This document shows positions 7,378 to 38,987 of a DNA stretch of 64,000 bases, in pieces; positions within the stretch are counted from its first letter, which is position 1; every line of letters starts with the position of its first letter. The position numbers and the translations under genes are program-made. The stretch comes from an uncultured Nitrospira sp. (GTDB lineage Bacteria; Nitrospirota; Nitrospiria; Nitrospirales; Nitrospiraceae): positions 62,001 to 126,000 of the forward strand of contig CABVSR010000002.1 of NCBI GenBank assembly GCA_902500995.1, written 5' to 3'. The notes below the pieces were generated by a model. The model ran no database searches and had not been told where the DNA came from. It was given only the letters and a program-made list of their open reading frames with translations.

Positions 7378-7423
7378 CTAGCAGTTTGCCTAGTTGTGGC
7401 ACAGCCGGCGGCGAACCTACAGT
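7378..7423 (+). promoter_or_regulatory. CYAGGG-box promoter (variant) for the PAS kinase at 7475
   Basis: Box CTAGCAGTTTGCCTAG (7378-7393), 24 bp, then TACAGT (7418-7423). The GGG of the consensus is replaced by GCA but both CTAG halves are kept. The -10 lies about 50 bp before the chosen ATG. Together with the site at 7344 it forms a divergent pair. Confidence 0.55.
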
Positions 7424-7474
7424 GGCCTTGGGAGAGGCTGCCGCTCTCCGGCACGGACATTCAGGAACAGACTT

Positions 7475-9451
7475 ATGACGACCCCGGATCAGCCATTCGA
7501 CTCGGTGCCGGAACGCCCGTTCCCACTGGATTTCATGCTGGCGCACCTCGCCGCCATCGTGGAGAGTTCAGATGATGCCATCATTTCGAAAGATTTGAAC
7601 GGCATCATCACGAGCTGGAACCGCGGCGCCCAGCATCTCTTCGGCTACACCGCAGAGGAGATGATCGGGCAACCGGTGCAACGGTTGATCCCCGATGATC
7701 GACTGAATGAAGAGCCGCGGATCCTGGAACGACTGCGGAAGGGAGAACGCATCGATCATTATGAAACAGTGCGGAAACGCAAAGACGGGACGTTGATCGA
7801 AATCTCGCTTTCCGTCTCACCGATTAAAAATCAGGAGGGGCGGATCGTGGGCGCATCGAAAATCGCCCGCGGAGTCTCGGATCTCAAGCAGAGCCAACGG
7901 AACCTTGCCAATCTCCTCGAAGCGCTGCCCGCGGCGGTCTATACCATCGATGCCGACGGCCATATCACGCGATACAACCAGGCCGCTGCCGATCTCTGGG
8001 GTTGCCGGCCACCCATCGGAGGCACCTGTTGGTCCGGATCCTGGCGACAGTATTGGGCCGACGGGCGGCTCATGCCCCCGGAGGAATGTCCTCTGGCGCA
8101 GGCGTTGACGTTCAACCGCCCGGTACGCGGCCTCGAGACCATCATCGAGCGGCCCGACGGCACGCGCCTGCCCGTCGCCTCTCACTCGACCCCGCTCCGC
8201 GGCCCGTCGGGGGTCCCCGTGGGAGGGGTGGATATCCTCGTCGATTTGACCGAACAGAAGCGGATCGAGCGGGACATGCAGAACTCCGCCGCCGAACTCG
8301 AACGTCGCATCGCCGAACGCACCGGAGAACTATTGCTCTCGCAGGAACGTCTGCGGGCCCTGGCCTCCGACCTCACCCTCACGGAGCAACGTGAACGCCG
8401 GCATCTGGCGACCGAATTGCACGACTACCTGGCTCAGCTGGTGGTGGCCAGCCGGATCAGGCTGGCGCAAGTCATCCCGACCATCCACGACAGTTCGGCT
8501 TCCGCGGCCCTCACGAAGATCGACGGCATGCTCGATCAGGCCTTGACCTACACCCGTTCGCTGGTCGCCGAACTCAGCCCTCATATTCTGTACCAGTTCG
8601 GCTTGGCGCAATCGCTGGTGTGGTTGGGTGAACAGATGAAGCAACATGGCCTCGAAGTGGCCGTGCGCTCGATGGCGCCGGCCTTCACGCTCCCGGACGA
8701 TCAGGCGGTCCTCTTGTTTCAATCGGTGCGCGAGCTGCTGTTCAATGTCATCAAACATGCCAAAGTCGACCGCGCCGCCATTACGATCAATGTGGATGAC
8801 GACCGGCGCGAGTTGTGGATTTGCGTGGAAGATGAAGGCGCGGGCTTCGACGTCACCGAACTGGGCATCACCAAGAATACCCGCTGCAAGTTCGGCCTGC
8901 TGAGCATCAGGGAGCGGATGGAATTGCTCGGAGGCGAGTGCAACGTGTCGTCCGTCCAAGGCAGCGGCACGGCGGTAACCCTCAGGCTTCGCTTGGCCTC
9001 CGGCTCCGTCCAGCCTCCGCTCAAGCGCGCCTCCGAAGCGGCATCGCCGCATCCGCCCTCCAGTGACGCCTTATCGCGCAACATCAAAATCCTTCTGGTC
9101 GACGACCATGCCATGGTGCGGCAGGGATTGCGGAGCATTCTGGACGCGTACGAGAATCTCACGGTGGTGGGCGAAGGCGCCGACGGCCAGGACGCCGTCA
9201 TCATGGCCCGCTCGCTCCATCCCGACGTGGTCATTATGGATGTGAACCTTCCCATCATCGACGGCATCGAAGCCACGCGTATTCTCACGCAGGAGCACGA
9301 GGCCATCTCGGTGATCGGGATCTCCGTCCGCAACGATCCTCAAGTCCACGATGCGATGACCCAAGCCGGGGCAGTCGCGTTTCTTCCCAAAGAGTCCGCA
9401 GCCGATCAGCTCTACGAAGTCATCCTCCGGCAGTTCCCTGTTCGGGCCTGA
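7475..9451 (+). CDS. PAS-PAS-HisKA_3 sensor kinase with C-terminal receiver
   Basis: 658 aa from the ATG at 7475. A TTG at 7394 would extend the frame but lies upstream of the predicted -10, so it is rejected. Two PAS domains (about 20-135 and 143-262), a coiled linker, HisKA_3 with His316 (ATELHDYLAQLV), HATPase_c (FGLLSIRERM) and a C-terminal NarL-like receiver (VVIMDVNLP) without HTH. No membrane segment is visible, so it is a cytoplasmic sensor. It is closely related to the kinases at 4773 and 9668 from the HisKA_3 domain onward, pointing to local duplication with exchange of sensor domains. Confidence 0.93.
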   Translation: MTTPDQPFDSVPERPFPLDFMLAHLAAIVESSDDAIISKDLNGIITSWNRGAQHLFGYTAEEMIGQPVQRLIPDDRLNEEPRILERLRKGERIDHYETVRKRKDGTLIEISLSVSPIKNQEGRIVGASKIARGVSDLKQSQRNLANLLEALPAAVYTIDADGHITRYNQAAADLWGCRPPIGGTCWSGSWRQYWADGRLMPPEECPLAQALTFNRPVRGLETIIERPDGTRLPVASHSTPLRGPSGVPVGGVDILVDLTEQKRIERDMQNSAAELERRIAERTGELLLSQERLRALASDLTLTEQRERRHLATELHDYLAQLVVASRIRLAQVIPTIHDSSASAALTKIDGMLDQALTYTRSLVAELSPHILYQFGLAQSLVWLGEQMKQHGLEVAVRSMAPAFTLPDDQAVLLFQSVRELLFNVIKHAKVDRAAITINVDDDRRELWICVEDEGAGFDVTELGITKNTRCKFGLLSIRERMELLGGECNVSSVQGSGTAVTLRLRLASGSVQPPLKRASEAASPHPPSSDALSRNIKILLVDDHAMVRQGLRSILDAYENLTVVGEGADGQDAVIMARSLHPDVVIMDVNLPIIDGIEATRILTQEHEAISVIGISVRNDPQVHDAMTQAGAVAFLPKESAADQLYEVILRQFPVRA

Positions 9452-9472: not shown

Positions 9473-9517
9473 CTAGGGTATACCCCAGTAGCCAATTCGA
9501 TCGGCCCGGCCTATGCT
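9473..9517 (+). promoter_or_regulatory. CYAGGG-box promoter for the membrane kinase at 9668
   Basis: Box CTAGGGTATACCCCAG (9473-9488), 23 bp, then TATGCT (9512-9517). The leader to the ATG is long (about 145 nt) and contains a perfect 12-bp palindrome TGGTGATCACCA (9546-9557) that could be another operator or a hairpin. Confidence 0.65.
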
Positions 9518-9667: not shown

Positions 9668-12600
9668 ATGACCTCGGTGCTGCTGACTTTGCAACGTCTG
9701 GTCCCCTGGGCCACCGGACTCTCTATCGGGGTACCGGTGGCGGCCTTTCTGTATTGGTTCTATAACCCCGCCATACCCGCTGAGTGGCTGCCCTACGCCG
9801 GGACGGTGAAACCGGCGACCATGGCTGCGGTCTTTTTTTGCGGCCTGTCCTTGTGGCTGCAGGCCGACGAGCAGCAGGTCACGCAACTGAAACGGAGGAC
9901 GGGACAGGGCCTTGCCGCTCTCGCCTTTCTTCTGGCAGCGGGGACCATGGCGGAATATTTCTTGTCCATCGATCTGGGTATCGATCTCTGGTTCATCCCC
10001 TCGCCCGATTACGCCCTCGACTCCCATCCCGGCCGGATGGCGCCGGCCACGGCCTTCGCCATCCTCATGTTGAGCCTGGCCTTGCTGCGGTTCGATTCGA
10101 ACCAGAGCGGGCAGGAAGATGCCGGCCATTACCTTGCGCTTCTCGGGGGTACGGTAGGGGCGATCGCGCTTGTGGGATATCTCTATGGCGTGCGGACGCT
10201 CTACAAGGTCGGCACGTCGAATTCCATTTCCATCATCAGCGCCGCCCTCCTGCTGACGCTCGGCCTCGGCATCCTCAGCGCCCGGCCCGCCCGCGGGTTC
10301 ATGTCCACGCTGACCGGCGACGATTTGGGTGCCGTGATGTTGCGGCGCGTTTTGCCGTTCGCCATTGCCCTGCCGATTCTGGCTGGATGGATTCGCATCG
10401 CCGCCCAGCGGTCGGGTCACTACGATTTCAATTTCGGCGTGGCGCTGGCTGTGGCCGTGGTCCTGCTGATCATGCTGGCCTTTCTCTGGTATCTGGCCGG
10501 TAACCTCAACCGCACCGACGGCCAGAAGAAGCATATCCTGCAGATCTTGCAGCAACGCGAGGCCAGGCATCGACTGGCGCTGAAGGCAGGCCGCATGGGC
10601 ACATTCCATCAGGATCTCGACCGCCAGACACTGGTATTTTCTCCGGAACTCGAACACATTTTCGGCCTGCCTGCGATGACGTTCGGCAGTACGTTCGCCG
10701 CCTTCCAGGACTTGATTCACCCCGAGGACCGGCAGCGAGTGCTGGAGACCATCAACAGAGCCATTCAGAACCGGGGTGCCTATGATCTGGAGTGCCGTAT
10801 CCTCCGGAAAGCTGCTCCCGGCGAAGCCTGGATCGCGGTCACCGGGCAGGTGCTTCCGGACTCCGCCGGTCATCCCCGGCAAATCACCGGCGTGATGTTC
10901 GACATCACGGAACGCAAGGAGGCCGAAACCGCCCTGAAAGAAAGCGAAGAGCGCTTCCGGCATCTCTTTGAACAGGCGTCGGACGGCATCGTGACCGCCG
11001 ATATGAACGGGCAGTACCTCGATGTGAACAGCCGCGCGTGCCAGATGTTGGGCTACACGCAAGAGGAATTGCTCAGGTTGCGGGTACCCGACCTGCTCGA
11101 TCCGCAGGACTACCCCCGGCTCAGGGCGATCAAGGCCGATTTGCTTCAGGGACACCGGCATTCAGGCGAGTGGAAACTCCGCAGGAAAGACGGTGGGACC
11201 ATTTCCGTCGAGATCAGCGCCAGGTTGCAGCCGGACCGGCGCTGGCATGCCATTGTGAGAGACATCACCGAACGTAAACGGGCCGATGCGGGGTTGCGCG
11301 AGAGTGAGGCCTACTTTCGCATGCTGGCCGACGCCACGCCGGTATTGGTCTGGAAAGCCGGGACGGACCGGCTCTGTTCCTGGCTCAACCGGTCGTGGCT
11401 GGAGTATACGGGACGCCTGCTCGAGGATGAACTGGGAACCGGGAGAACGGACAGTATTCACCCAGAAGACCGGGCCGAGTTCATCAGGGTCTACAATACG
11501 CACTTCTCGCAGCAGGCACCGTTCGAATTGGAATACCGCTTGCGCCGTCAGGACGGGACTTACGGCTGGATCCTGGATCGGGGTGTACCGCTTCTCAGCG
11601 CCACCGGAGTCTTCAGCGGGTACCTCGGCGCCGCCCTGGACATCACGGACCGGAAGCAGGCCGAAGAACGGCTGCAGCAATGGACCGTGGAACTCGAGAA
11701 ACGCGTTGATGAGCGGACGCGAGCCCTCATGCATTCGCAAGCGCGCCTGCGCGCCTTGGCCTCCGATCTTAGCGCTACGGAACAGCAGGAGCGCCGGCGG
11801 CTGGCGACGGAGCTGCATGACTACTTGGCGCAGTTGCTGGTCGTGGGCCGCATGAAACTCAGCCAGGCCAGGCCGCAAGTCCGAAACACCAAAACAGAAC
11901 AATTGCTGAGCGAGGCAGACGACATGCTCACGCAGTCGCTCAACTACACCCGATCACTCGTGGCCGAGTTGAGTCCGCAAATCCTCTATCAGTTCGGATT
12001 ACCTGCCGCGCTCAAATGGCTGGCCGGCCAGATGAACAGGCACGGGCTCTCGGTCGCCATCCATTGCGAGATGGACCAGCTTCCGCTCGCGGAAGAGAGC
12101 GCCGTGATTGTCTACCAGAGCGTGCGGGAACTCCTCTTCAACGTCGCGAAACATGCCGGCACGGGAGAAGCAACCATCGCATTGGATCAGGGCCCCGGCG
12201 ATCAGGTGCGCGTCACCGTATCCGATCAGGGCTGCGGGTTCAATCCGGCCATTCTCGCCGACAGCGATCGGCAACACCCCGGCCGGTTCGGACTCTTCAA
12301 TGTGCAGGAACGGATGGAGGCCGTCGGCGGCAGCCTGAGACTGACTTCCGCAGAAGGAATCGGCACCACCATCACGCTCAGCGCTCCGCTCAATCCTGCA
12401 CCCGATACGACTCCGGACTCGAGCCTGGCACATTCAACCTCGCCCGACGCGAATTCCCTGACGCCCTCGTCCCGATTACGCATTCTCTTGGTCGACGACC
12501 ATGCCATGGTCCGCCAGGGACTCCGAAGCGTCTTGGACAGTTACCCCGATCTTGAAGTAGTGGGTGAAGCAGGAGATGGAGCGGCGGCGATCAGCATTGC

Positions 12601-12844
12601 CGCCGCCCTGAAACCGGATGTGGTCGTCATGGACATCAACATGCCGATGATCGACGGTATCGAAGCCACCCGCCATATCACCAGCGAGCGACCGGATGTG
12701 GTGGTCATCGGGCTGTCGGTTCAAAACGAGCGGCACATCGAGGAAGCGATGCTCAAGGCCGGGGCGGCGGTCTTTGTCACCAAAGAACGCGCCGCCGGCC
12801 AATTGTACGACGCCATCGTGAGCACCGTGCGGACGAGACGGTAA
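9668..12844 (+). CDS. Membrane PAS-PAS-PAS-HisKA_3 sensor kinase with C-terminal receiver
   Basis: 1058 aa. The N-terminal 280 residues contain seven or eight hydrophobic helices and form an integral membrane sensor. Three PAS domains follow (about 300-418, 425-540, 545-665), then HisKA_3 with His717 (ATELHDYLAQLL), HATPase_c (FGLFNVQERM) and a terminal NarL-like receiver (VVVMDINMP) without HTH. The start is the first ATG of the frame; no strong ribosome-binding site is visible. The kinase core is a paralogue of those at 4773 and 7475. Its expression appears to be part of the CYAGGG set. Confidence 0.93.
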   Translation: MTSVLLTLQRLVPWATGLSIGVPVAAFLYWFYNPAIPAEWLPYAGTVKPATMAAVFFCGLSLWLQADEQQVTQLKRRTGQGLAALAFLLAAGTMAEYFLSIDLGIDLWFIPSPDYALDSHPGRMAPATAFAILMLSLALLRFDSNQSGQEDAGHYLALLGGTVGAIALVGYLYGVRTLYKVGTSNSISIISAALLLTLGLGILSARPARGFMSTLTGDDLGAVMLRRVLPFAIALPILAGWIRIAAQRSGHYDFNFGVALAVAVVLLIMLAFLWYLAGNLNRTDGQKKHILQILQQREARHRLALKAGRMGTFHQDLDRQTLVFSPELEHIFGLPAMTFGSTFAAFQDLIHPEDRQRVLETINRAIQNRGAYDLECRILRKAAPGEAWIAVTGQVLPDSAGHPRQITGVMFDITERKEAETALKESEERFRHLFEQASDGIVTADMNGQYLDVNSRACQMLGYTQEELLRLRVPDLLDPQDYPRLRAIKADLLQGHRHSGEWKLRRKDGGTISVEISARLQPDRRWHAIVRDITERKRADAGLRESEAYFRMLADATPVLVWKAGTDRLCSWLNRSWLEYTGRLLEDELGTGRTDSIHPEDRAEFIRVYNTHFSQQAPFELEYRLRRQDGTYGWILDRGVPLLSATGVFSGYLGAALDITDRKQAEERLQQWTVELEKRVDERTRALMHSQARLRALASDLSATEQQERRRLATELHDYLAQLLVVGRMKLSQARPQVRNTKTEQLLSEADDMLTQSLNYTRSLVAELSPQILYQFGLPAALKWLAGQMNRHGLSVAIHCEMDQLPLAEESAVIVYQSVRELLFNVAKHAGTGEATIALDQGPGDQVRVTVSDQGCGFNPAILADSDRQHPGRFGLFNVQERMEAVGGSLRLTSAEGIGTTITLSAPLNPAPDTTPDSSLAHSTSPDANSLTPSSRLRILLVDDHAMVRQGLRSVLDSYPDLEVVGEAGDGAAAISIAAALKPDVVVMDINMPMIDGIEATRHITSERPDVVVIGLSVQNERHIEEAMLKAGAAVFVTKERAAGQLYDAIVSTVRTRR

Positions 12845-15090: not shown

Positions 15091-15429
15091 TTAGGACTGA
15101 CTCGGCTTGTCGGCGTGGCTTTCAAACCACTCATCGACCCACCGTTTCACTTCCTCCCGGCGATCGCCGTACCGTTCCTGAATCTTGCCTTCCAGGATAT
15201 CGATTCGCCCTTCGATCAACATCAGATCGTCTTCCGTGAATTCAGCCCACTTCGCCTTGAGTTCGCCTTTGAATTGTTTCCATTTACCTGCGATCTGATC
15301 CTGATTCACAACCAAGACCGGCCCGGCTGCTCCTCGCGGAGTCAGTCTGTCGCCTGCCTGTGCCACCGCCGTCATCAGCACCATCCCCATCAGGGGAAGG
15401 CCGACTCTCCTCCACTGTATGAGTGCCAT
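15091..15429 (-). CDS. Exported CsbD-like stress protein
   Basis: 112 aa from the ATG after GGAGAGG. Residues 1-24 look like a signal peptide (RRVGLPLMGMVLMTAVAQA). Residues about 47-105 form a CsbD domain (KWKQFKGELKAKWAEFTEDD... GKIQERYGDRREEVKRWVDEWFE). It is a clear paralogue of the cytoplasmic CsbD protein encoded at 15823-16068. CsbD proteins are small, abundant, stress-induced and of unknown function, and are normally cytosolic; an exported copy is unusual. Confidence 0.85.
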   Translation of the reverse strand: MALIQWRRVGLPLMGMVLMTAVAQAGDRLTPRGAAGPVLVVNQDQIAGKWKQFKGELKAKWAEFTEDDLMLIEGRIDILEGKIQERYGDRREEVKRWVDEWFESHADKPSQS

Positions 15430-15500
15430 CGCCACCTCTCCTTGACATCCTTGGCAGAGGCGTGCCGGCGCGCGGTACCCCACCGGCACGCCCGACCGAT

Positions 15501-15822: not shown

Positions 15823-16068
15823 TCAGCGGGGAGGTTGAGCCTCTCGGCGCTGGGCTCCCGGTTGGGATTGCCCTTGCCGGGTGTACCAATCATCGGCCCA
15901 GCGCATGACTTCGTCTTTTTTATCGCCGTAACGCTCCTGGATGCGTCCGACGAACTTGTCGTAATCCCCTTCGATCTGCTTCAGATCGTCATCCGTAAAT
16001 TTGCCCCACTGCTTTTTGACTTCGCCTTTGAACTGCACCCATTTTCCTTTGAATTGATCGGTATTCAT
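15823..16068 (-). CDS. CsbD family stress protein (cytoplasmic)
   Basis: 81 aa, no signal peptide. The CsbD domain spans about residues 4-64 (KGKWVQFKGEVKKQWGKFTDDD... GRIQERYGDKKDEVMRWADDWY), followed by a polar Gln/Arg-rich tail. The ATG overlaps the TGA of the preceding 79-aa gene and also has its own GGAGG-type site. In Bacillus and proteobacteria this family belongs to the SigB or RpoS general stress regulons. Confidence 0.92.
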   Translation of the reverse strand: MNTDQFKGKWVQFKGEVKKQWGKFTDDDLKQIEGDYDKFVGRIQERYGDKKDEVMRWADDWYTRQGQSQPGAQRREAQPPR

Positions 16069-16332: not shown

Positions 16333-16377
16333 GTTATAACTCCCCGGCAGACGATGGATGACTGGACATACCCCTAG
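16333..16377 (-). promoter_or_regulatory. CYAGGG-box promoter of the eight-gene envelope operon
   Basis: Read in the minus direction: box CTAGGGGTATGTCCAG (16377-16362), 23 bp, then TATAAC (16338-16333). The predicted transcript starts about 22 nt before the ATG at 16304. All eight genes down to 12863 are separated by at most 71 bp and no other box was seen among them. Confidence 0.7.
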
Positions 16378-16472: not shown

Positions 16473-18614
16473 TTAGGCCTCGAGGGACGCGTTGGAACGG
16501 CTGAGGATGGCCACCGACCTTGCTTGCGTGGTGTAGCCCTCCCCACCTTTAAACGTGGGAGCCGGGTCGGGAATCGCGGATTGGGCCGTGTCGAGCGTGA
16601 GCCTCCAGCAGACGGAGGTTTCAGATGAGGGCAGCAAAAATTCTACGGCTTCATGGTGCGCATTGAGCAGAACCATGAACGTATCATCGACAATCGAGTT
16701 GCCGCGGCTGTCTTTCTCTTCGATGGCATCGCCGGCCAGCACGAAGCCGATCGCGCGCAGGTGCCCTTGCGTCCAATCGGCCTCGTCCATCTCTTTACCG
16801 TCGGCGCGCAGCCAGACGATATCTTTCACTTCGGATCCGTGGATCTGCCGCCCTTGGAAAAAGCGCCGGCGCCGGAAGACAGGATGGTCCTGGCGCAACG
16901 CGATGACTTCGCGGACGAAGCCAAGAAAGGCCCGGTTCTCCGGCGTCAGGGTCCAATCATGCCAACTGAGTTCATTGTCCTGGCAGTAGGCATTATTATT
17001 GCCCTGCTGCGTGCGCCCGATCTCATCACCGCCGCACAACATCGGCACACCCTGCGAGAGCAGCAACGTCGCCAGCATGTTGCGTTTCTGTCGGAAGCGC
17101 AGGTCGCGCACGGCGCGGTCGTCGGTGGGGCCCTCCACGCCGCAGTTCCAGCTCAGATTATCGTTATGGCCGTCCTGATTGCCCTCGCCGTTCGCTTCAT
17201 TGTGCTTCTCGTTGTACGACACCAAATCATGAAGGCTGAACCCGTCGTGCGCGGTGATGAAGTTGATGCTGGCGAAGGGCCGACGGCCGCTCATTTCATA
17301 GAGGTCGCTGCTGCCGGACAGCCGGTAGGCAAGCTCCGCGACTTGCCCCCCGTCGCCCTTCCAATACCGGCGGATCGTATCGCGGTATTTGCCGTTCCAT
17401 TCCGCCCAGCCGGCCGGGAAGTTGCCGACCTGATACCCGCCGTCGCCGAGGTCCCATGGTTCTGCGATCAGCTTCACCTGCGACAAGACCGGGTCCTGGT
17501 GAATGATGTCGAAAAAGGCGCTCAGTCGATCCACCTCGTGCAGCTCCCTGGCCAAGGTGGAGGCCAGATCGAAGCGAAAACCATCGACATGCATGTCCAG
17601 CACCCAGTACCGGAGACTGTCCATGATCAGCTGCAGCGTCCTGGGATGGCGCACATTCAGGCTGTTCCCGCAACCGGTGTAGTCCATGTAGTAGCGGGGG
17701 TCGTCCGCCACCAGCCTGTAATAGGCAGCGTTATCGATCCCTCGGAACGACAGGGTCGGTCCGAGATGGTTGCCTTCTGCCGTATGGTTGTAGACGACGT
17801 CGAGAATGACCTCGATGCCGGCACTGTGCAACGTCTTGACCATCGTTTTGAATTCTCGCACGTGCCGCCCCCGGACAGGGGACAAGGCGTAACGCATGTC
17901 GGGCGCAAAAAAACCGATGGTGTTGTAGCCCCAGTAATTGGTCAGCCCCTGATCGGTCAAATGTTTGTCCTGCACCGCATGGTGCACGGGCAGCAATTCC
18001 ACCGCCGTTACTCCGAGGCTCTGCAGATATTCGATCACCGCCGGCGTCGAGAGACCCGCATAGGTGCCGCGCAGATGTTCCGGCACGTTGGGATTCCGCG
18101 CCGTGAAACCCTTCACATGCACCTCATAAATGACCGTCTTCGACCAGGGCGTGCGGAGCAGATGATCGCCTCCCCAACTGAACGCCTGATCGACGACGAC
18201 ACATTTAGGGGTGTTTTCCGCATTGTCGCGTTCGTCGCGGACCAGATCCGCGTCCGGCTCACCGATCCGGTAGCCGAACATGCTGTCCGACAACCGGATC
18301 GTGTCCGCGATCGATTTCGCGTAGGGGTCGATCAGGAGTTTGGCGGGATTGAACCGGTGGCCGGCCGCAGGCTCGTAAGGCCCGTCGACGCGGTAGCCGT
18401 AATGGAGGCCGGGGCGCCCCTCCGGCAGGTACACATGCCAGGTTTGATTGGTCCGTTCCTCCAAACGAATCCGATGGGATTCCTTTGTCGCGTCCGGCCC
18501 GTCAAAGAGGCACAGTTCCACCGACGTGGCATTCTCAGAAAACAGGGCAAAATTCACCCCTTCCCCATCCCACGTGGCGCCCAGCGGATAGGGTCGGCCC
18601 GGCCATACCTTCAT
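16473..18614 (-). CDS. glgX: Glycogen debranching enzyme GlgX (GH13)
   Basis: 713 aa, full length for the family. An N-terminal CBM48-like domain ([30 protein letters not shown]) precedes the GH13 barrel. Catalytic signatures are visible: nucleophile Asp in [12 protein letters not shown], general acid Glu in [10 protein letters not shown] and the third acid in [13 protein letters not shown]. It cleaves alpha-1,6 branches of limit dextrins during glycogen use. It is the third gene of a run with the 62-aa membrane protein and the ferritin-like protein (52 bp gap), so glycogen breakdown and iron storage appear to be co-expressed. Confidence 0.96.
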
Positions 18615-18666: not shown

Positions 18667-19200
18667 TTACTTCAAGAGACTGACGAGATCCTCGGCATGC
18701 TCTTCTTCCTTCATCAAAATGTGCTCGAGCAGCCGCCGCGTCGTGGGGTCGTCACTGCCGACGAAGGCGATCATATCGCGATAACTTTCAATCGCAATCC
18801 GCTCCGCCACCAGATCTTCCTTGATCATATCTTCCAGATCGTCACCCTCGACATATTCCGAATGGCTGCGGTCGGACAATCCGTCGGGTGAGAGATTCGG
18901 TTCCCCGCCGAGCTGGACGATTCGCTCCGCCAGTTCATCGGCATGGGCCTGTTCCTCGTCGGCATGTTCAAGAAATTCCGCTTTGACGCTTTCCGCGTTC
19001 ATGCCCTCCGCCATGAAATAATGGCGCCTGTATCGGAGGACACAGACAATTTCCGTTGCCAAGGCTTCATTCAGCAGTTTGACCACGGTATCGCGGTCCG
19101 CCTTGTAATCCGCGGTCAGCGCGCCTTCTTCAATGTGCTGGCGAGCGCGTTCCCTGATGGTTTGCACATCCTTGATGATCGATGGCTTCTCTGTTTTCAT
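18667..19200 (-). CDS. Ferritin-like (bacterioferritin-type) protein
   Basis: 177 aa from the ATG after AAAGGAG. A four-helix ferritin-like fold with repeated di-iron ligands is visible: EALATEIVCVLRYRRHYF, EHADEEQAHADELAERI, EDLVAERIAIESYRDM and MKEEEHAEDL. It likely oxidises and stores iron or detoxifies peroxide. No heme-ligand Met could be assigned with confidence. Its position 49 bp after the small membrane-protein gene and 52 bp before glgX indicates one transcript. Confidence 0.88.
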   Translation of the reverse strand: MKTEKPSIIKDVQTIRERARQHIEEGALTADYKADRDTVVKLLNEALATEIVCVLRYRRHYFMAEGMNAESVKAEFLEHADEEQAHADELAERIVQLGGEPNLSPDGLSDRSHSEYVEGDDLEDMIKEDLVAERIAIESYRDMIAFVGSDDPTTRRLLEHILMKEEEHAEDLVSLLK

Positions 19201-19249
19201 CTCGACTCCTTTCATGCCGTCAAACGGCCATACTTCGTTCGATTTGCGT

Positions 19250-19479: not shown

Positions 19480-19524
19480 ACAGTAGAAGCTAGGAGGAAT
19501 GGCACGTACTAGGTAGAACCCTGG
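19480..19524 (-). promoter_or_regulatory. CYAGGG-box promoter of the small-protein/ferritin/glgX operon
   Basis: Minus direction: box CCAGGGTTCTACCTAG (19524-19509), 23 bp, then TACTGT (19485-19480). The start codon at 19438 lies about 35 nt past the predicted transcription start. Confidence 0.7.
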
Positions 19525-20769: not shown

Positions 20770-21405
20770 TCAGCGCGGAACCGCCATCGATGAAAGTCCC
20801 GCTTGGATCCGCTCTTCGACGACGTTCCACCCGATGTTGCTGAAGAACGAATCGATGTATTGTTTGCGCTCGCTCGGTTGATAGTCCAAGAGGTAGGCAT
20901 GTTCCCAGACATCCATCACCAGGATCGGTAAGAAGCCGGCCACGTTGCCATGTTCATGCAACGAGACCCAATGGTTGGAGACGAGCCCCCGCGCCGGATC
21001 CACGTTGCAGATCGCCCAGCCCACCCCGCGCATCATGCCGACACTGCAAAAGTCCGCTTTCCAGCGCTCGTAACTGCCGAACGTCCGCTCTACGGCGCGA
21101 CTGAAGGCCGAGCCGGCGGCGGGCTGATCGTCGCCTCCGCGCCGGAGATTGCCGAAATAATATTCGTGCAGCACCATGCCGTTGAATTCAAAACCCAGCC
21201 GGCGGGTCAGTTCGGAGTAGGCCGGCATTTGTTCGTGATCTACCTTGCCCCGTTTCATACATTCAGCCAATTGTTCGCGCAATTCGTTTGCGGCTTTTAC
21301 GTAGCCTTCGTAGAGCCCGAAGTGCACTCGCAACGTTTCATCGGAAATGCCGGACAAGCCGAACAGATCGTAGGTCTTCGCCTGGTATGGTTGAGTGGCG
21401 GACAT
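20770..21405 (-). CDS. sod: Iron/manganese superoxide dismutase
   Basis: 211 aa. The ATG is chosen for the AAAGGA site and because the frame upstream runs through the promoter. The four expected metal ligands are present: His in LRVHFGLYEGYV, His in MVLHEYYFGNL, and Asp and His in VMDVWEHAYLLDY. It converts superoxide to peroxide and oxygen. The N-terminus lacks an export signal, so it is cytosolic. Residues alone do not let me choose Fe or Mn. Promoter and neighbours place it in the CYAGGG stress set, divergent from a LuxR-type regulator. Confidence 0.93.
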   Translation of the reverse strand: MSATQPYQAKTYDLFGLSGISDETLRVHFGLYEGYVKAANELREQLAECMKRGKVDHEQMPAYSELTRRLGFEFNGMVLHEYYFGNLRRGGDDQPAAGSAFSRAVERTFGSYERWKADFCSVGMMRGVGWAICNVDPARGLVSNHWVSLHEHGNVAGFLPILVMDVWEHAYLLDYQPSERKQYIDSFFSNIGWNVVEERIQAGLSSMAVPR

Positions 21406-21451: not shown

Positions 21452-21496
21452 AACGTAACTGTTTCAGGGCCTTTCCCCAACTAGGCGATGCCCTGG
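21452..21496 (-). promoter_or_regulatory. CYAGGG-box promoter of sod
   Basis: Minus direction: box CCAGGGCATCGCCTAG (21496-21481), 23 bp, then TACGTT (21457-21452). The predicted leader to the ATG is about 40 nt. Confidence 0.7.
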
Positions 21497-21675
21497 TACG
21501 GTCCTGGGGCACTCTGGGAACAAGCCGGGGGGCTTTCCTAGGCGCGATGTTGACTCCACTCGGCCAGAATGAGCCCACGTGATGCATAGAACCAGCCGCC
21601 TGGTCTGGACAAGGGCAGCAGAGAGGATTATTTTGTTGATGAGGGTTGCCCATCACCGTTCATGGAAGGAGCATC

Positions 21676-22332
21676 GTGGCCAAAGCGCGCATCGTGATCG
21701 CCGATGACCATAGTCTGGTCCTGGAAGCCTATCGGCAGTTGTTGGAGCCGGATTTCGATGTGGCCGGCACGGCATCGAACGGGCAGGAACTGCTGAATAT
21801 TGCGCCTGGGCTCAACCCCGACATCATTCTGCTCGACATCTCGATGCCCACCATGAACGGGCTCGAGGTCACGAAGCAGCTGCGCGCGGCCGTGCCGCAT
21901 GCCAAGATTATTTTTGTGACCATGATGAGCGAGCCCTTTTATATTTCGCAGGCCTTTCAGATGGGCGCATCAGCCTATGTCTTGAAACAGTCTGCCTCGA
22001 CAGAATTGCTGTCGGCGCTGAACGCCGCTCTCAAGAACCAACGATATATCTCCCCGCAGCTTTCGCTCGAAGTCCAGGACGCCATCGAGACCCCCTGGGT
22101 GAAACCGGAAGGATTTTCCTCCAAACTGACTCCTCGTCAGCAGGAAGTGCTGCAACTGCTGACCAAGGGGATGTCCACGAAGGAAATTGCGCAAACCATG
22201 CAGGTCTCCACGAAGGCCGTGGAATTCCACAAGGGCAACATCACGCGCCGGCTGGGTATCCGCACCACGGCGGAGTTGACGCGATTCGCGTTATCGCAAG
22301 GATTGACGAAACTGCACGACCAGCATCCCTGA
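21676..22332 (+). CDS. LuxR/NarL-family response regulator
   Basis: 218 aa from a GTG behind AAGGAG; upstream ATGs in the frame have no such site. The receiver has acidic pair Asp10-Asp11, acceptor Asp54 (IILLDISMP) and Lys in YVLKQSA. The C-terminal GerE-type HTH is complete (LTPRQQEVLQLLTKGMSTKEIAQTM, recognition helix near STKAVEFHKGNI). It is a DNA-binding partner for HisKA_3 kinases such as those at 4773-12844. It is divergent from sod, with the sod CYAGGG box between them, which makes it a candidate for the factor that binds the box (inference). Confidence 0.94.
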   Translation: MAKARIVIADDHSLVLEAYRQLLEPDFDVAGTASNGQELLNIAPGLNPDIILLDISMPTMNGLEVTKQLRAAVPHAKIIFVTMMSEPFYISQAFQMGASAYVLKQSASTELLSALNAALKNQRYISPQLSLEVQDAIETPWVKPEGFSSKLTPRQQEVLQLLTKGMSTKEIAQTMQVSTKAVEFHKGNITRRLGIRTTAELTRFALSQGLTKLHDQHP

Positions 22333-22336
22333 TCGC

Positions 22337-23023
22337 TCAGGACTGGGAGCCGGGCACGGTGGGCTGCTGCGGCATGGCGATGAGCCCGATCGCGATGGCA
22401 TGTTTGGTGAGTTCGGCGGTGCTGTGAATGCCGAGCTGTTTCATGATGCGGGTTTTGTGAAATTCGACGGTCTTGATGGACACATTGAGGGTGGAAGCGA
22501 TTTCCTTGGTCGATTGGCCCTCGGCGATCAGCTGCAGGACTTCCCGCTGCCGGCCGCTGAGCGAATCGTTGGACGGCTGCGGTGAACCGGCCGGAGCCGG
22601 CGCCACGGGATGGAGCGCTTGGGCCACCAGATTCTCCGCCACGCTGGGCGAGACATAGAGACGCCCTTTCAACACCTCCTTGATCGCAAAGACCAGTTCC
22701 TCCGCCACCGATTGTTTCAAGACATATCCGGACACACCGGCGCGAAACGCTTCCGTCACGAAATATTGCTCGCCGTGCATCGTGAGGACGAGCAGCTTCA
22801 CCTCCGGGACCGATTTCTTAATTTGCCGGCAGGCATCCAGACCGTTCAACAGCGGCAGGGCGATATCCACGATGGCGATATCCGGCTTGTCCTTCTCCAC
22901 GGCTCGAACGAGCGCGCGCCCGTCAGCGACCCGGCCGCACAACTGAAAATCGTGTTCCAGCAGCTTCTCCACACCTTCCGCCACGAGGGTATGGTCGTCG
23001 GCTATGAGTACGCGTGGTTTCAT
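22337..23023 (-). CDS. LuxR/NarL-family response regulator
   Basis: 228 aa, ATG behind GGAGCATACCC. Receiver with Asp9-Asp10, acceptor Asp53 (AIVDIALP) and Lys in YVLKQSV; Pro/Ala linker; GerE HTH (LSGRQREVLQLIAEGQSTKEIASTL, then SIKTVEFHKTRI). It is a paralogue of the regulator at 21676 and ends five bases from it in convergent orientation. The upstream region carries an inverted repeat GTAGGA...TCCTAC (about 23054-23077) but no CYAGGG box. It is the second candidate for the box-binding activator. Confidence 0.94.
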   Translation of the reverse strand: MKPRVLIADDHTLVAEGVEKLLEHDFQLCGRVADGRALVRAVEKDKPDIAIVDIALPLLNGLDACRQIKKSVPEVKLLVLTMHGEQYFVTEAFRAGVSGYVLKQSVAEELVFAIKEVLKGRLYVSPSVAENLVAQALHPVAPAPAGSPQPSNDSLSGRQREVLQLIAEGQSTKEIASTLNVSIKTVEFHKTRIMKQLGIHSTAELTKHAIAIGLIAMPQQPTVPGSQS

Positions 23024-23111: not shown

Positions 23112-24428
23112 TCATAATTCTTTCGACCAGAAAAAAATGATGCCATGACCGCCCTTGGTGGGCGGCGCGCCGCCGGGGTCCCGATAGATGCCGAAATTGT
23201 AGGTGTAATTGAGCTCGATCTGCGATTTCCAGGGAGCCCCGGTCACCAACCCTCCTCCCAGGGCAGGCATGGAGTCGGTGATATTTTTCACGGCATTGTT
23301 CGAGGTGAACACCGGACGTTCGACCAGTCCCCAGGTCGCCTCCACATAGGGGTAGAGGAAGAAGAGCGCCTCATAACGGTATTGCAGGTTCGCGACGGCA
23401 TACCGGGTGGGAAATAATTCATTGAAAGCCACACCATGGATCATCGGCAACGAGATCGCCTCCCACTCGTAGCCGGTCGGCCGGCCCGGCAGCCGGAAGG
23501 CTGAAAAGCGATCCAGGTCCTTCCCGATTCCCCCATGAAGACTACTCAATAGGCGGTGCTTGTCGCTCTCGATGAACGGCAACCCCGTGGCCAGCAACGC
23601 GTAGGCGCTGGCCTGAATGTAGGTCCGTTCCTTCCTGAAATCCGGTGTATTGAACGGGGCCCCGCCCCACTGGTCCCACTTGGCCCGGTGCCCATGCAAC
23701 AGATCCCCGCCCATGGTGAATCCCTCGTGCGGAAGCTCCATCAGATTTCGTTTGAGCGCGTCCGCCCGGATACGGAAATGGATGCGGCCTTCATAGGTGT
23801 CCTTCGGCACGCCGTAGTTCGCCGACGTGTAGCTGGTGCCCTTGAACCAGCGGTACCCGGCTTCGTACGTGAGTGAAATGTTCACTGCGCTGTCCTGCCG
23901 GAACGGGCGGACCGGGAGCCGGTAGCCGATTCCGGCCCCGGCAAACGCATAACTCCATTCCAGCTCCGTGCCCCGCTGGCGCTGCCCCTGCACATATTCC
24001 GACCGGCCGATGGGCAAAATGAAATTGTCCCACGTGAACAGGAGCGACCAGTTCGGATAGTCTCGCAGCCCGATAGTGTAGTCCACGTCGTTGACGACGC
24101 CCGAAAAGGTCCCGCGCAGGCGCCGGTTGTCGTCATCCCAATTCCTCCAGATATATAACGCGCCGAACGGGAGCGCTTCTTGTTGGGCCGGCCCGTTCGG
24201 TATCGCCTGAATGCCGAAACTCAGGGCCGTGACGCTCCGCCGGTCCCGGGGCGGCACATAGATTTCCTCCCCGAACAGGGTGGTGCGAAACGGCTCACCC
24301 GCAATGGGCGTCGGTTCTTCCGCCCATACGACATGTTGTGGATCGTCAAACCAGGCTTCAGGCAAGGACCATAGGCAGACAAGGCTGATCCACACATAGA
24401 CAGCCCGTCGAGATGAACTTAGACACAT
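23112..24428 (-). CDS. Large outer-membrane beta-barrel protein, unknown family
   Basis: 438 aa from ATG 24428; a TTG at 24452 is an alternative, but the leader length from the predicted promoter fits the ATG better. Signal-like N-terminus (AVYVWISLVCLWSLPEAWF). The mature chain is rich in alternating aromatic strands (GALYIWRNWDDDNRRLRGTF, SLLFTWDNFILPIG, YRYEALFFLYPYVEATWGLV) typical of a barrel of about 16 strands. The C-terminus (IIFFWSKEL) departs from the usual terminal Phe. No transporter motif recognised. Confidence 0.75.
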   Translation of the reverse strand: MCLSSSRRAVYVWISLVCLWSLPEAWFDDPQHVVWAEEPTPIAGEPFRTTLFGEEIYVPPRDRRSVTALSFGIQAIPNGPAQQEALPFGALYIWRNWDDDNRRLRGTFSGVVNDVDYTIGLRDYPNWSLLFTWDNFILPIGRSEYVQGQRQRGTELEWSYAFAGAGIGYRLPVRPFRQDSAVNISLTYEAGYRWFKGTSYTSANYGVPKDTYEGRIHFRIRADALKRNLMELPHEGFTMGGDLLHGHRAKWDQWGGAPFNTPDFRKERTYIQASAYALLATGLPFIESDKHRLLSSLHGGIGKDLDRFSAFRLPGRPTGYEWEAISLPMIHGVAFNELFPTRYAVANLQYRYEALFFLYPYVEATWGLVERPVFTSNNAVKNITDSMPALGGGLVTGAPWKSQIELNYTYNFGIYRDPGGAPPTKGGHGIIFFWSKEL

Positions 24429-24480
24429 CGATTGAGTGGATCCTGACAGCAAACGTTCACTTCCTTGACGCCGGTATCTT

Positions 24481-24526
24481 TTTATATGTCACTCCTGACA
24501 CAAGCCACCCCTAGTGAAACCCCTGG
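24481..24526 (-). promoter_or_regulatory. CYAGGG-box promoter of the outer-membrane protein gene
   Basis: Minus direction: box CCAGGGGTTTCACTAG (24526-24511), 24 bp, then TATAAA (24486-24481). The leader to ATG 24428 is about 46 nt, like the other members. Confidence 0.65.
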
Positions 24527-27924: not shown

Positions 27925-27969
27925 CTAGGGAGACGCCTAGGACGGATTGTTGCGACCGCCCGCTACAAT
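27925..27969 (+). promoter_or_regulatory. CYAGGG-box promoter of the proline-rich exported protein
   Basis: Box CTAGGGAGACGCCTAG (27925-27940), 23 bp, then TACAAT (27964-27969). The leader to ATG 28020 is about 44 nt. One of the best-matching sites, and its -10 differs from TATAAT by one base. Confidence 0.75.
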
Positions 27970-28386: not shown

Positions 28387-29655
28387 TCATGTCCGTTTGA
28401 TGCGTTCTTTCCAATAAATCAGTCGCGCGCCCGGCTTAAACGTCAGGTAGTACCATATCCACTCGAACATCACCCGGACTCGATTTCGGAAGCCGATCAG
28501 AAAAAAGATATGGACGAAACACCAGGCCAGCCAGGCGACGATCCCGGACAGTGACAGGGGTCCGAACTGCGCGACCGCCTTGGCCCTGCCGATCGTCGCC
28601 AGAATGCCGCGATCCCGGTATACGAAGGGCGCGCGCCGCTCGGGCGGGACGCCTCGACTGATCATCCCGGCCACGTACCGACCTTCTTGCATGGCGACCG
28701 CCGCGAGGCCCGGCAAGGGTTTGCCCTCCGCAGAGGGGCAATGCGCCGCGTCGCCGATCACGAACAGCCATGGATCGCCGCGCAGACTCAGATCCGGTTC
28801 GACCATCACGCGCCCCGACGAATCCAAGGGCACCCCGAGTGAGCTCAGGATGGGCGAGGCCACATTGCCGGCGGCCCAGATCACATGGGCGCTCCGGATG
28901 AACTCCTCTCCTGCCAGGACGCCTTTTGAGTTCACATCCTGAACCCGGCGGTTCAAGAGCACCGTCACCCCGAGGCGTTCGAGGGAGGCCTGCGCCCGGC
29001 GGGACAAGGCGAGAGGGAAGGCTTCGAGGATTCGCGGCCCTCCTTCGATGAGCAGAATGCGGCAAGTCGTTTCTCGAAGGACCGGAAAATCCGGTGTCAT
29101 CGCCTTTCTGCCGATTTCTGCCAGCGCTCCCGCCAGTTCCACTCCCGTGGGGCCGCCTCCCACGATGACGAAGGTCAGCTCATCGAGGGCATCCGGGGTG
29201 CCTTTGACTCGTTCGGCCTTCTCGAAAGCCATGAGCATCCGCTCGCGGATCTCCAACGCATCCGGCAACGTCTTGAGTCCCGGCGCATCCGCTTCCCATG
29301 CGGCGTGCCCGAAATACGAATGGCAGGCGCCCGGCGCGAGAATCAACGCGCTGTAGGAGATCGGATCCCCGTCCCGGAGATCGATACGCCGGGCCGCGCG
29401 GTGGATCGCCATCACTTCATTCAGCAGGATCCGGACATTGCGTTGGGAGCGAAAGAGGGTGCGCAGCGGCCAGGCGATATCACCGGGAGACAAGGCGGCC
29501 GTGGCGACTTGATAAAGTAATGGTTGAAACAGGTGGTGATTCACCCGATCGATGAGGACGACGTCTCGCAGGGTGCCCTGCAAGGCCCGCGCGGCAGCCA
29601 ACCCGCCGAATCCGCCTCCGACGACGACCACCGGATCCCGGCGATGCTGTTCCAC
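28387..29655 (-). CDS. ndh: Type II NADH:quinone oxidoreductase (NDH-2)
   Basis: 422 aa from a GTG behind AAGGAGCAGGAG. FAD-binding motif VVVGGGFGGLAAARAL at the N-terminus, second nucleotide motif VIVGGGPTGVELAGALAE, and the FAD-ribityl motif LFVIGDAAHCPS. The C-terminal 70 residues hold an amphipathic or hydrophobic segment (GIVAWLAWCFVHIFFLIGF) for membrane attachment. It oxidises NADH and reduces quinone without pumping protons, which could lower reactive-oxygen formation. Divergent from the glycosyltransferase; the box between them faces the other way. Confidence 0.93.
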   Translation of the reverse strand: MEQHRRDPVVVVGGGFGGLAAARALQGTLRDVVLIDRVNHHLFQPLLYQVATAALSPGDIAWPLRTLFRSQRNVRILLNEVMAIHRAARRIDLRDGDPISYSALILAPGACHSYFGHAAWEADAPGLKTLPDALEIRERMLMAFEKAERVKGTPDALDELTFVIVGGGPTGVELAGALAEIGRKAMTPDFPVLRETTCRILLIEGGPRILEAFPLALSRRAQASLERLGVTVLLNRRVQDVNSKGVLAGEEFIRSAHVIWAAGNVASPILSSLGVPLDSSGRVMVEPDLSLRGDPWLFVIGDAAHCPSAEGKPLPGLAAVAMQEGRYVAGMISRGVPPERRAPFVYRDRGILATIGRAKAVAQFGPLSLSGIVAWLAWCFVHIFFLIGFRNRVRVMFEWIWYYLTFKPGARLIYWKERIKRT

Positions 29656-29731: not shown

Positions 29732-29776
29732 CTAGGGAGCCGCCTAGTTCTGAATCGTTCACCGGCTCGTTAGGAT
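29732..29776 (+). promoter_or_regulatory. CYAGGG-box promoter of the glycosyltransferase gene
   Basis: Box CTAGGGAGCCGCCTAG (29732-29747), 23 bp, then TAGGAT (29771-29776). No TANNNT occurs at this spacing on the ndh side. The leader is long, about 130 nt, and contains a possible 17-codon reading frame (29819-29872) without a ribosome-binding site. Confidence 0.65.
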
Positions 29777-29914
29777 GACCCTCGCAACAATCCGCATCAC
29801 ATAGAGTGATTCCCCCATGTCGCAACTCATGACTACCCTCCGATTCTCCGTTCGCTGTCCATCCAATTGAGGTCGCCACGCACCGTCACCGGTCGAAAAA
29901 AAGGAGCCAGTTGT

Positions 29915-31003
29915 ATGAAGATCGCCCAGGTCGCGCCCCTATGGGAAAGTGTTCCACCGGTTCTCTATGGCGGAACAGAACGCATTGTGTCATGCATCAC
30001 GGAAGAGTTGGTCCGGCAGGGCCATGAGGTCACGCTCTTTGCCAGCGGCGACTCCACGACGAGCGCACGCCTCATGCCGATGTGCGCCGAGGCGCTCCGC
30101 TCCACCACAGTCATCATGAACTATGAGGCTCCCTTGACCGCCATGATCGAAAAGGTATTCAGCTCCGCGCCGGAGTTCGATCTCATCCATTCGCATTTGG
30201 AGTTTATTCCGTTTCCTCTCGCCAGGCGGTGCCGCACCCCGATGCTCACCACGCTGCATGCCCGGCTGGACCAGCCTGAGCTGGTTCCCGTCTTCAGAAA
30301 ATTTGTCGACCTTCCGTTGGTATCCGTGTCCGACGCCCAACGCGAGCCCCTGGCCTGGGCCAACTGGCAGGCCACCATCCATCCTGGCCTGCCGAAACAC
30401 CTGTATGCACCGCAAGAAGAGCAAGGGCGTTATCTGCTCTTCCTCGGCCGCGTGGCGCCTGAAAAGGGATTGGATCGGGCGATTGAGATCGCCACACGGG
30501 TGGAGATGCCGTTGCGCATCGCCGCGAAGATCGACAGGCAACATGCCGCCTATTACAAGTCGGTGATCGAGCCGCTGCTGGATCACCCGCTGGTGGAATT
30601 TCTAGGTGAGGTCACTGACATTGAGAAAGAAGATTTGCTGGGCCATGCCTATGCCCTGCTGGCCCCCAATACGTGGCCGGAGCCCTTCGGGCTGGCATTG
30701 ATAGAGGCGCTGGCCTGCGGGACGCCCGTCATTGGAACTCGCTGCGGCGCCATCCCCGAAATTGTCGAACATGGAGTGACAGGGTTTCTCTGTGACACCC
30801 TGGAGGACATGGCACAGTCGATCAGACATGTCCCGTTGCTGGAACGGACCCGATGCCGGCAATCGTTCGAGCTCCGGTTTTCTGCGGAACGGATGGCGCA
30901 AAACTATGTAGCGGTCTACGGGAACCTGCTCGGAGTCCCGGCCAAGGCGCCGGTGACGTCTTCGGATCTCGCTTTCGGTCTGACTCCTGCCAAACAGGGC
31001 TGA
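29915..31003 (+). CDS. GT4-family glycosyltransferase
   Basis: 362 aa from the ATG behind AAAAGGAG. N-terminal Rossmann domain with the acceptor-side loop PPVLYGGTERIVSCITEELVRQGHEVTLFASGDS, and C-terminal GT-B domain with LFLGRVAPEKGLDRAIEIA and the E-x7-E motif EPFGLALIEALACGTPVIG. Retaining sugar transfer from an NDP-sugar. The acceptor is not evident; glycogen-like, trehalose-like or exopolysaccharide products all occur in the family. Its stress-type promoter suggests a protective glycan. Confidence 0.92.
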   Translation: MKIAQVAPLWESVPPVLYGGTERIVSCITEELVRQGHEVTLFASGDSTTSARLMPMCAEALRSTTVIMNYEAPLTAMIEKVFSSAPEFDLIHSHLEFIPFPLARRCRTPMLTTLHARLDQPELVPVFRKFVDLPLVSVSDAQREPLAWANWQATIHPGLPKHLYAPQEEQGRYLLFLGRVAPEKGLDRAIEIATRVEMPLRIAAKIDRQHAAYYKSVIEPLLDHPLVEFLGEVTDIEKEDLLGHAYALLAPNTWPEPFGLALIEALACGTPVIGTRCGAIPEIVEHGVTGFLCDTLEDMAQSIRHVPLLERTRCRQSFELRFSAERMAQNYVAVYGNLLGVPAKAPVTSSDLAFGLTPAKQG

Positions 31004-31083: not shown

Positions 31084-31797
31084 TTAGCGCTTGCTGCTCG
31101 GGTTGCCACCTTCAAATCCAGGAGCTTTTCCCGAGGGCATTCCGCTCGTGCCGCTGGGTCCGCCGCCGCCCACCGACTCTTCACCCATGGATCCGGTGGC
31201 TTCGGGGCCCTTTTGGCCCGGGACACCGGGGTTCCCCGATACGGTCGGGGCTTCCCGAACCTGTCCCATCTTGTCCTTGTATTCCTGCAGGTCAGGAGAC
31301 TTATCCTTGCTGCTGCTCATCGGCAAGGCGTTTTGAATCTCCTCTTTCTTCATCGTCAATTGGAGCTTATCGCCCTTCGTTTTGAATTGGCTCCATCTGA
31401 TCGGCTGCGGCCGTTTGGATTCGTTGGAGACAAACACCACATATTCGATGTCTCCGGTTTTTTCATCCTTCATGACCTGCTGAATTTTGCCGATTTCCTC
31501 TCCGCTCACGCTGAAGACCGACGCGTTGAGGTACTTGCTGTCCTTCATTTCCACGAGCTTGCCTTGGCGTACAGGGGTGTCCGCATATTCTTCTGGAATC
31601 CCCTGTTTCCCACCCGTCAGATCCGTCTTTTTATCGAACGACGGTGACTCCTTCGGGGTGCTCGTGCCTGCACCTTTTCCCATGGTTGAATCCGGCGCCG
31701 GCGCGCCGGAACCAGTAGAGACCTGGCTAAACGCCGGCGTGCCGGCCATCAACGCCAACGCGATCGTTCCCGCATACATTGCCATTCGTCGATTCAT
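31084..31797 (-). CDS. Exported PRC-barrel-like protein
   Basis: 237 aa from ATG with AAAAGGAG. Signal peptide (AMYAGTIALALMAGTPAFSQ), a Ser/Gly/Thr-rich spacer, then a PRC-barrel-like unit (SVFSVSGEEIGKIQQVMKDEKTGDIEYVVFVSNE and QPIRWSQFKTKGDKLQLT, about 103-168), ending in a long Gly/Ser/Pro tail. PRC barrels are protein-interaction beta domains; the exported form may act at the envelope. It follows the small PRC protein by 54 bp in one operon. Confidence 0.82.
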   Translation of the reverse strand: MNRRMAMYAGTIALALMAGTPAFSQVSTGSGAPAPDSTMGKGAGTSTPKESPSFDKKTDLTGGKQGIPEEYADTPVRQGKLVEMKDSKYLNASVFSVSGEEIGKIQQVMKDEKTGDIEYVVFVSNESKRPQPIRWSQFKTKGDKLQLTMKKEEIQNALPMSSSKDKSPDLQEYKDKMGQVREAPTVSGNPGVPGQKGPEATGSMGEESVGGGGPSGTSGMPSGKAPGFEGGNPSSKR

Positions 31798-31851
31798 ATC
31801 GATTCTCCTTTTGTGAAATGCATGCACTACACCTGTCTCTGTGATCCTGAA

Positions 31852-32211
31852 TTACCAATAGGGCTTGTATCCATAATAGGTATGCAACCGCTCGGCCCAG
31901 GCAGAATCGGCCATGTCGGGCCACCGATCCTTATCAAACCCTTCGGCTTGCTCCAGCCGTTCCCGCGGGACGTTCAGAATAAAGAAATCTCCGCCTGCGG
32001 AAATCGAGAGCGCGCCCCATGGCAAGGCGAACAGCTTGTCGCCTAAGCCCATAAAACCGCCGAACGACAGTACGGCGTAGGCGATGCGCCCCTGGTCCAG
32101 ATCGATCATGAGCGAGTGAATCTCACCCAGATCCTCTCCGGCCGCGTTTTGAACCGCGGTTCCTTCGATGGTCGATGCGGTCAGCAGTCTCCGTCCTATA
32201 TGTGTAGCCAT
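31852..32211 (-). CDS. PRC-barrel domain protein (cytoplasmic)
   Basis: 119 aa from the ATG behind GAGGAGGAG. PRC-barrel core TIEGTAVQNAAGEDLGEIHSLMIDLDQGRIAYAVLSFGG and FALPWGALSI, then a helical tail ending HTYYGYKPYW. Family members serve in electron-transfer complexes and stress responses. First gene of the two-PRC operon, about 69 nt after its predicted transcription start. Confidence 0.9.
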   Translation of the reverse strand: MATHIGRRLLTASTIEGTAVQNAAGEDLGEIHSLMIDLDQGRIAYAVLSFGGFMGLGDKLFALPWGALSISAGGDFFILNVPRERLEQAEGFDKDRWPDMADSAWAERLHTYYGYKPYW

Positions 32212-32286
32212 CTTCTCCTCCTCTGGGGTTAGAAAATCGGATGCGGCCCGTGCCCGCTGCGTCGAGATCACGCCCTCTTTCTTGTA

Positions 32287-32331
32287 GTGTTAACTCCCGA
32301 TCTGGATGGGGGCAGCTAGGAATGACCCTAG
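32287..32331 (-). promoter_or_regulatory. CYAGGG-box promoter of the PRC-barrel operon
   Basis: Minus direction: box CTAGGGTCATTCCTAG (32331-32316), 23 bp, then TAACAC (32292-32287). Confidence 0.65.
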
Positions 32332-36544: not shown

Positions 36545-36584
36545 ATTTATCCTCACTGCCGTTATATTTATCCTCACTGCCGTT
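36543..36584 (-). repeat. Perfect 21-bp tandem duplication covering the glgC ribosome-binding site
   Basis: Two head-to-tail copies of a 21-bp unit (36543-36563 and 36564-36584), each including the Shine-Dalgarno GAGGATAAAT on the minus strand. Only the copy next to the gene is followed by ATG. The duplication lengthens the predicted leader from about 44 to about 65 nt. Confidence 0.95.
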
Positions 36585-36615: not shown

Positions 36616-36660
36616 ACCTTACACAACATCCCTGCGTCGGGGTACTGGACAAACCCCTAG
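36616..36660 (-). promoter_or_regulatory. CYAGGG-box promoter of glgC-treY
   Basis: Minus direction: box CTAGGGGTTTGTCCAG (36660-36645), 23 bp, then TAAGGT (36621-36616). Confidence 0.7.
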
Positions 36661-38941: not shown

Positions 38942-38987
38942 AGTGTACGCAGCCTTATCGCAATCTCCCTACTAGGTAGATCCCTGG
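38942..38987 (-). promoter_or_regulatory. CYAGGG-box promoter of the peroxidase/peroxiredoxin genes
   Basis: Minus direction: box CCAGGGATCTACCTAG (38987-38972), 24 bp, then TACACT (38947-38942). It is back-to-back with the box at 39021. Confidence 0.65.

Follow-up and report, generated by a model that had tools for sequence, protein, structure and literature searches.

In Nitrospira, a pair of neighbouring response regulators, RR1 and RR2, probably governs a storage and stress regulon through a 16-bp palindromic promoter element, CTAGGG-N4-CCCTAG (the box); at least one of the two, with RR1 or both the likelier, would bind the box and activate the genes behind it. The window, a stretch of 64,000 nucleotides from an uncultured Nitrospira sp. 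(G000:C2:62001–126000), encodes both regulators, and its RR2 is 98% identical to that of Nitrospira UBC2. Nitrospira are the principal nitrite oxidisers, and the comammox bacteria, which oxidise ammonia, are among them. In the papers searched, no promoter motif of Nitrospira has been tied to a regulator, this box is not described, and no NreC consensus was found. A named regulator pair together with its box makes a whole stress and storage regulon testable, even in uncultured members, and allows the regulon to be predicted from genomes alone.

The box was re-derived independently from dyads around the sod promoter (CTAGGGNNNNCCCTAG). The window holds 11 sites with at most two mismatches, against a mean of 1.14 expected from 100 dinucleotide shuffles, among which the maximum was 6 sites and 11 was reached in 0/100. 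Of 84 box orientations in stretches from the same genome, 15 have the hexamer TAnnnT starting exactly 23 bases past the box, with 0–2 occurrences at each of the other offsets; a reversed-pattern control gave no peak. If the −10 hexamer spans −12 to −7, an offset of 23 places the box centre near −43, as the preliminary description had it. Alignment of 93 distinct box promoters, from this locus and 40 others, revealed no −35 hexamer. The offset peak and the missing hexamer indicate that the box stands in for the −35 element, and its position is that of a class II-type activator site.

The same position had been offered as a sign of the LuxR/NarL class. It is a weaker sign than claimed, because CRP/FNR-type activators use that position too. 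A 16-bp dyad in a −41.5-type position also suits that family, and the box could be a 5-N6-5 palindrome centred near −42 and recognised by a CRP-family protein from an unlinked gene. We regard this as very unlikely. The sixth base of the arms is conserved (G in 83 and C in 68 of the 93 promoters), which favours a 6-N4-6 site, and both the distribution of the box among genomes and its presence in the RR1 promoter, described below, indicate the pair instead. The base directly after the box is T in 61 of the 93 promoters, and the site probably extends to ACTAGGG-N4-CCCTAGT, the leading A having been noted by eye. Two NtrC-type regulators in the window (40957–42327 and 48786–50192) were considered as readers; such sigma-54 activators were rejected because boxes at −43 of TAnnnT promoters are unlike an enhancer arrangement. 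Tandem boxes that overlap by CTAG, with a 12-bp period, were found elsewhere in this genome (C5:101214/101226) and in G017 (C1:1810472/1810484 and 2880787/2880799). Such tandems occur in genomes without RR1 and RR2 too, and may have a different reader.

RR1 and RR2 lie where the preliminary description placed them, complete and tail to tail, with their stop codons 4 bp apart. A six-frame search found 25 GerE genes in the genome, just two of them inside the window (C2:84123 and C2:84397), and the pair are indeed the sole complete regulators of their class there. Both proteins cover the whole Pfam Response_reg profile (E = 6e-28 for RR1, 1e-23 for RR2) and match the GerE helix–turn–helix (PF00196) above cut-off (E = 1e-17 and 3e-20, respectively). 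The receiver motifs ILLDISMP and AIVDIALP, together with ADDH, T and K residues, can be seen in the translations. Each protein thus has the N-terminal receiver with a phosphorylatable Asp and the C-terminal GerE domain of the NarL/FixJ type. As read from their sequences, RR1 and RR2 are a conserved convergent pair of phosphorylatable NarL/FixJ-type response regulators. The best NCBIfam models for the two are MctR (NF052445) and PRK15369, at about 155–167 bits; both score 167 bits with MctR, for which the curated cut-off is 300, and far under the curated cut-off of 242 bits for PRK15369. Neither regulator therefore belongs to these families, and no NCBIfam equivalog scored above its cut-off for either protein.

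Boxes were counted at up to one mismatch in 175 Nitrospiraceae genomes, and RR1 and RR2 were sought in the same genomes. Both regulators are present in 55 of the 175, almost always adjacent and convergent (in two genomes they lie on separate contigs). The median number of boxes is 14 in these 55 genomes as compared with 2 in the other 120, and the pair is found in all 32 genomes with at least 12 boxes and in 37 of the 38 with at least 11. Presence of the pair is associated with box number (Mann–Whitney P = 1e-22, a value uncorrected for shared ancestry apart from the separation into genera), and the contrast runs in the same direction within each of genera g1, g14, g15 and g17; in g14, genomes with the pair carry 16–20 boxes, those without it 0, 0 and 0. 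The co-occurrence check proposed in the preliminary description therefore comes out in favour of the regulators, whose presence tracks box number. Seven genomes with the pair hold just 1–5 boxes. Genomes that carry the box and lack both regulators, which the preliminary description would have held against the pair, do exist: near-complete assemblies without the pair carry 2–7 boxes. The objection holds for such small box sets, but not for the expanded regulon.

In the genus of the window, the pair and many of the boxes share one island, so that part of the correlation within the genus may reflect block inheritance. The island-type glgC is restricted to genomes with the pair and to G027, where remnants of the island are left; G027 was scored as lacking the pair, but the short contig bearing its boxed island breaks off ahead of the position expected for the pair, and the absence is likely an assembly gap. 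Among the matches listed, boxes outside the island are not clearly more numerous in genomes with the pair, an impression rather than the outcome of a formal test. It is nevertheless improbable that inheritance of the island as a block is all that lies behind the co-occurrence. Of the 26 boxes of N. moscoviensis, no more than 4 fall within about 130 kb of the pair (in the 260 kb around it), and this dispersal means that physical linkage is not the explanation there. In other genera, too, only a minority of boxes lie within 10 kb of the pair, and no such explanation is needed for the box conserved upstream of RR1. G038 retains a small island piece with boxes and has no pair, which indicates that boxes can persist under another reader. 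The G038 gene for NDH-2, which has no upstream box, was rejected as a natural knockout: it lies right behind the amylase gene of the boxed island piece.

The recognition helix VEFHK is common to five regulators of this genome, RR1, RR2, L009 (C6:52184), L018 (C23:44910) and L016 (C7:71971), whereas L025 has VAFHK. In the tree the five belong to one subfamily, within which RR1 (99/96) and RR2 (100/99) form separate clades. Helices so nearly identical raise the prospect that a paralogue elsewhere reads the boxes and that RR1 and RR2 are mere neighbours or targets, and the persistence of boxes without the pair fits such an arrangement. So does a further paralogue with the same helix, RR3, which in genomes without the pair (L194–L203, L280) has a box directly 3′ of its gene, mostly with a −10 at offset 23. 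In one of these loci (L201, in G017) the next long ORFs past RR3 resemble, by eye, an outer-membrane efflux/HlyD pair. None of L009, L018 and L016, however, tracks box number within the genus: L009 has an orthologue in 29/29 congeners, with box counts from 0 to 25; G025 (14 boxes) and G029 (17 boxes) have no L018; and most of the 29 congeners, including most of the box-rich ones, lack L016. In this genome, moreover, the nearest box to any of the three is more than about 1.5 kb away, and RR3 has no close orthologue. We consider a paralogue unlikely as reader of the boxes of this genome. Where the pair is missing, the well-spaced box next to RR3 does fit a specificity held across the subfamily; recognition of the box is probably subfamily-wide, with RR1 and RR2 reading the expanded regulon.

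The preliminary description had noted one box between sod and RR1. That box (box A, CTAGGYGAWGCCCTGG) is conserved in nearly all of 20 congeners, but a second, box B, had been missed. In the window box B has three mismatches with the half-site CCTAG intact, and is among the weaker versions in the genus; all 20 congeners examined keep it in the RR1 promoter, and most of them have a closer match to a −10 at offset 23 on the RR1 side. Across 40 pair loci, a box lies within 300 bp upstream of RR1 in 37 and upstream of RR2 in 15, against a background of 95 of 533 (18%) other ORFs of the same loci and 240 of 4000 random 300-bp stretches. Second copies of RR1 in G084 and G051 likewise carry the box upstream. 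Box B is thus a putative autoregulatory site, and RR1, if the site is its own, has the arrangement of an autoregulated response regulator. In the spacers of L056–L075 a conserved CCTGKTATNNTGA stretch lies nearer the RR1 start than box B, and is possibly a second, box-independent RR1 promoter.

RR1 and RR2 are co-inherited and so inseparable by co-occurrence; autoregulation is our sole ground for preferring RR1. It is quite conceivable, if short of an even chance, that RR1 alone is the box-binding activator, with RR2 either modulating it (as heterodimer partner, phosphate sink or antagonist) or serving some other control, a reading that refines our explanation rather than competing with it. 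The frequency of the box upstream of RR1 and its retention by duplicated copies argue for this division of labour, but the helix of RR2 is equally VEFHK, and no genome with RR1 and boxes but without RR2 was found among the 175. RR2-like singletons (in G012, G015, G016 and others) were rejected as solo carriers, as they fall outside the RR2 clade in the tree. Covariation of helix and box was likewise of no help in separating the two: in a clade with few boxes (G084 C52 (G084b), G127, G087, G052 and G083; loci L120, L121, L125, L127 and L128) RR1 has VLFHK and RR2 has VEFHR, both helices having changed together, so that the change cannot be assigned to either. Some RR1 promoters of this clade carry CTAGGG...CCAG variants, and the site may have shifted. 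As candidates for the regulator of the expanded regulon, then, RR1 and RR2 have gained from the co-occurrence, from the box in the RR1 promoter and from the failure of the paralogues to track box number; as exclusive readers they have not, given five VEFHK regulators, boxes without the pair, and RR3 beside a box.

Table 1. Regulators, boxes and selected neighbouring genes in the window. Offsets are counted from the box to the −10 hexamer.
Feature	Position	Strand	Remarks
PAS-HisKA_3-HATPase-REC hybrid kinase	7394..9451	+	Pfam; possible input
PAS-HisKA_3-HATPase-REC hybrid kinase	9668..12844	+	Pfam; possible input
Fe/Mn superoxide dismutase (sod)	20773..21405	-	Pfam Sod_Fe_C; target behind box A
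RR1	21676..22332	+	GTG start, 218 aa; REC + GerE (NarL/FixJ-type) response regulator; recognition helix VSTKAVEFHKGNITRRLGI
RR2	22337..23023	-	228 aa; REC + GerE response regulator; recognition helix VSIKTVEFHKTRIMKQLGI
box	7378..7393	+	3 mismatches; TACAGT at offset 24; upstream of HisKA_3 hybrid kinase; second box at 7344
box	9473..9488	+	TATGCT at offset 23; upstream of HisKA_3 hybrid kinase 9668-12844
box	16362..16377	-	3 mismatches; TATAAC at offset 23; upstream of 15823-16068 and 15091-15489
box	19509..19524	-	TACTGT at offset 23; upstream of ferritin-like 18667-19215 and isoamylase-type glgX 16473-18614
box A	21481..21496	-	CCAGGGCATCGCCTAG towards sod; −10 TACGTT 23 bp downstream
box B	21526..21541	+	CGGGGGGCTTTCCTAG towards RR1; −10-like CAGAAT at offset 23
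box	24511..24526	-	TATAAA at offset 24; upstream of 446-aa ORF 23112-24452
box	27925..27940	.	−10 on both sides: TAGGTT towards GH15 operon, TACAAT on + strand
box	29732..29747	.	between NDH-2 (28387-29655, -) and glycosyltransferase (29867-31003, +)
box	32316..32331	-	upstream of PRC-barrel genes 31852-32271 and 31084-31827
box	36645..36660	-	3 mismatches; TAAGGT at offset 23; upstream of glgC 35285-36577
box	38972..38987	-	TACACT at offset 24; upstream of ORF 37418-38875

The position of the boxes in the window (Table 1) suggests that their targets, namely the listed genes, RR1 and possibly RR2, make up an energy-storage and oxidative-stress programme. RR2 follows the 446-aa ORF on the same strand after 88 bp; the two possibly form an operon, in which case the box at 24511 may control RR2. 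The two small proteins behind the box at 16362 are CsbD-like by eye. At 29732, TAGGAT stands at offset 23 on the plus side and AATGAT on the minus side; this box and that at 27925 each suggest that a single box serves two divergent promoters. Near the box at 38972 there is a second, at 39021, with TAGGAT at offset 23 on the plus side. For glgC, the island orthologue in several congeners lacks a box in the 350 bp that precede its aligned start, and the gene is therefore not uniformly conserved as a direct target. The HisKA_3 kinases had been described as lying behind boxes, which is so for those at 7394 and 9668, but not for that at 4773. The TTG start of the first, at 7394, is probably wrong, the −10 of its box lying at about 7418; an ATG near 7475 (MTTPDQPFDS) is a better-fitting start.

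We propose that a dimer of RR1 and/or RR2 would bind CTAGGG-N4-CCCTAG at the −35 position, centred about −43, and that the bound regulator would activate, rather than repress, sigma-70-type promoters. The regulon would comprise sod, ferritin, glg/trehalose-type genes, NDH-2, and the PRC-barrel and CsbD-like proteins, and RR1 would switch on its own gene via box B. The kinases at 7394 and 9668 would phosphorylate the regulators in response to a physiological signal; they carry a C-terminal REC, and direct phosphotransfer to RR1 or RR2 is an assumption of ours. With two of the three local HisKA_3 kinases behind boxes, the circuit could include positive feedback. We suggest only tentatively that the two members of the obligate pair act jointly, either as a heterodimer or with one activating and the other competing for the same box, and so form the master switch of an energy-storage and oxidative-stress regulon found throughout the Nitrospira lineage, with the wider VEFHK subfamily using the same box for other targets.

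The closest structures to RR2 by sequence are VraR, DesR, DevR (DosR) and NarL, all matching over nearly the full length (E = 4e-26 to 3e-21). Their sites and signals differ from those of the pair, and the recognition helix of VraR, the best match, is KTVKTHVSNI, without the E-F-H-K pattern of RR2. ComA of Bacillus subtilis, a NarL-type regulator, recognises a 16-bp 6-N4-6 palindrome upstream of its target promoters; the form of the palindrome would be shared with the box, although half-site and regulon differ. NreC has the REC + GerE domain order, a HisKA_3-type kinase and a GGG-N4-CCC palindrome. In the NreBC oxygen/nitrate system of Staphylococcus it is paired with an oxygen-sensing histidine kinase, and its phosphorylated form stimulates transcription and binds to a GC-rich palindrome (PMC8139620, PMC5694512). 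As a response regulator with a palindrome close to the box, NreC appears to be the nearest functional analogue. The window genes that were examined showed no pair resembling NreA/NreB; here, PAS-rich hybrid kinases with a C-terminal REC take the place of NreB, there are two convergent regulators, and the regulon concerns energy storage and stress rather than nitrate respiration. The mechanism of the regulator is thus of a known type, and what is unusual is the obligate convergent pairing, together with the size and conservation of the regulon.
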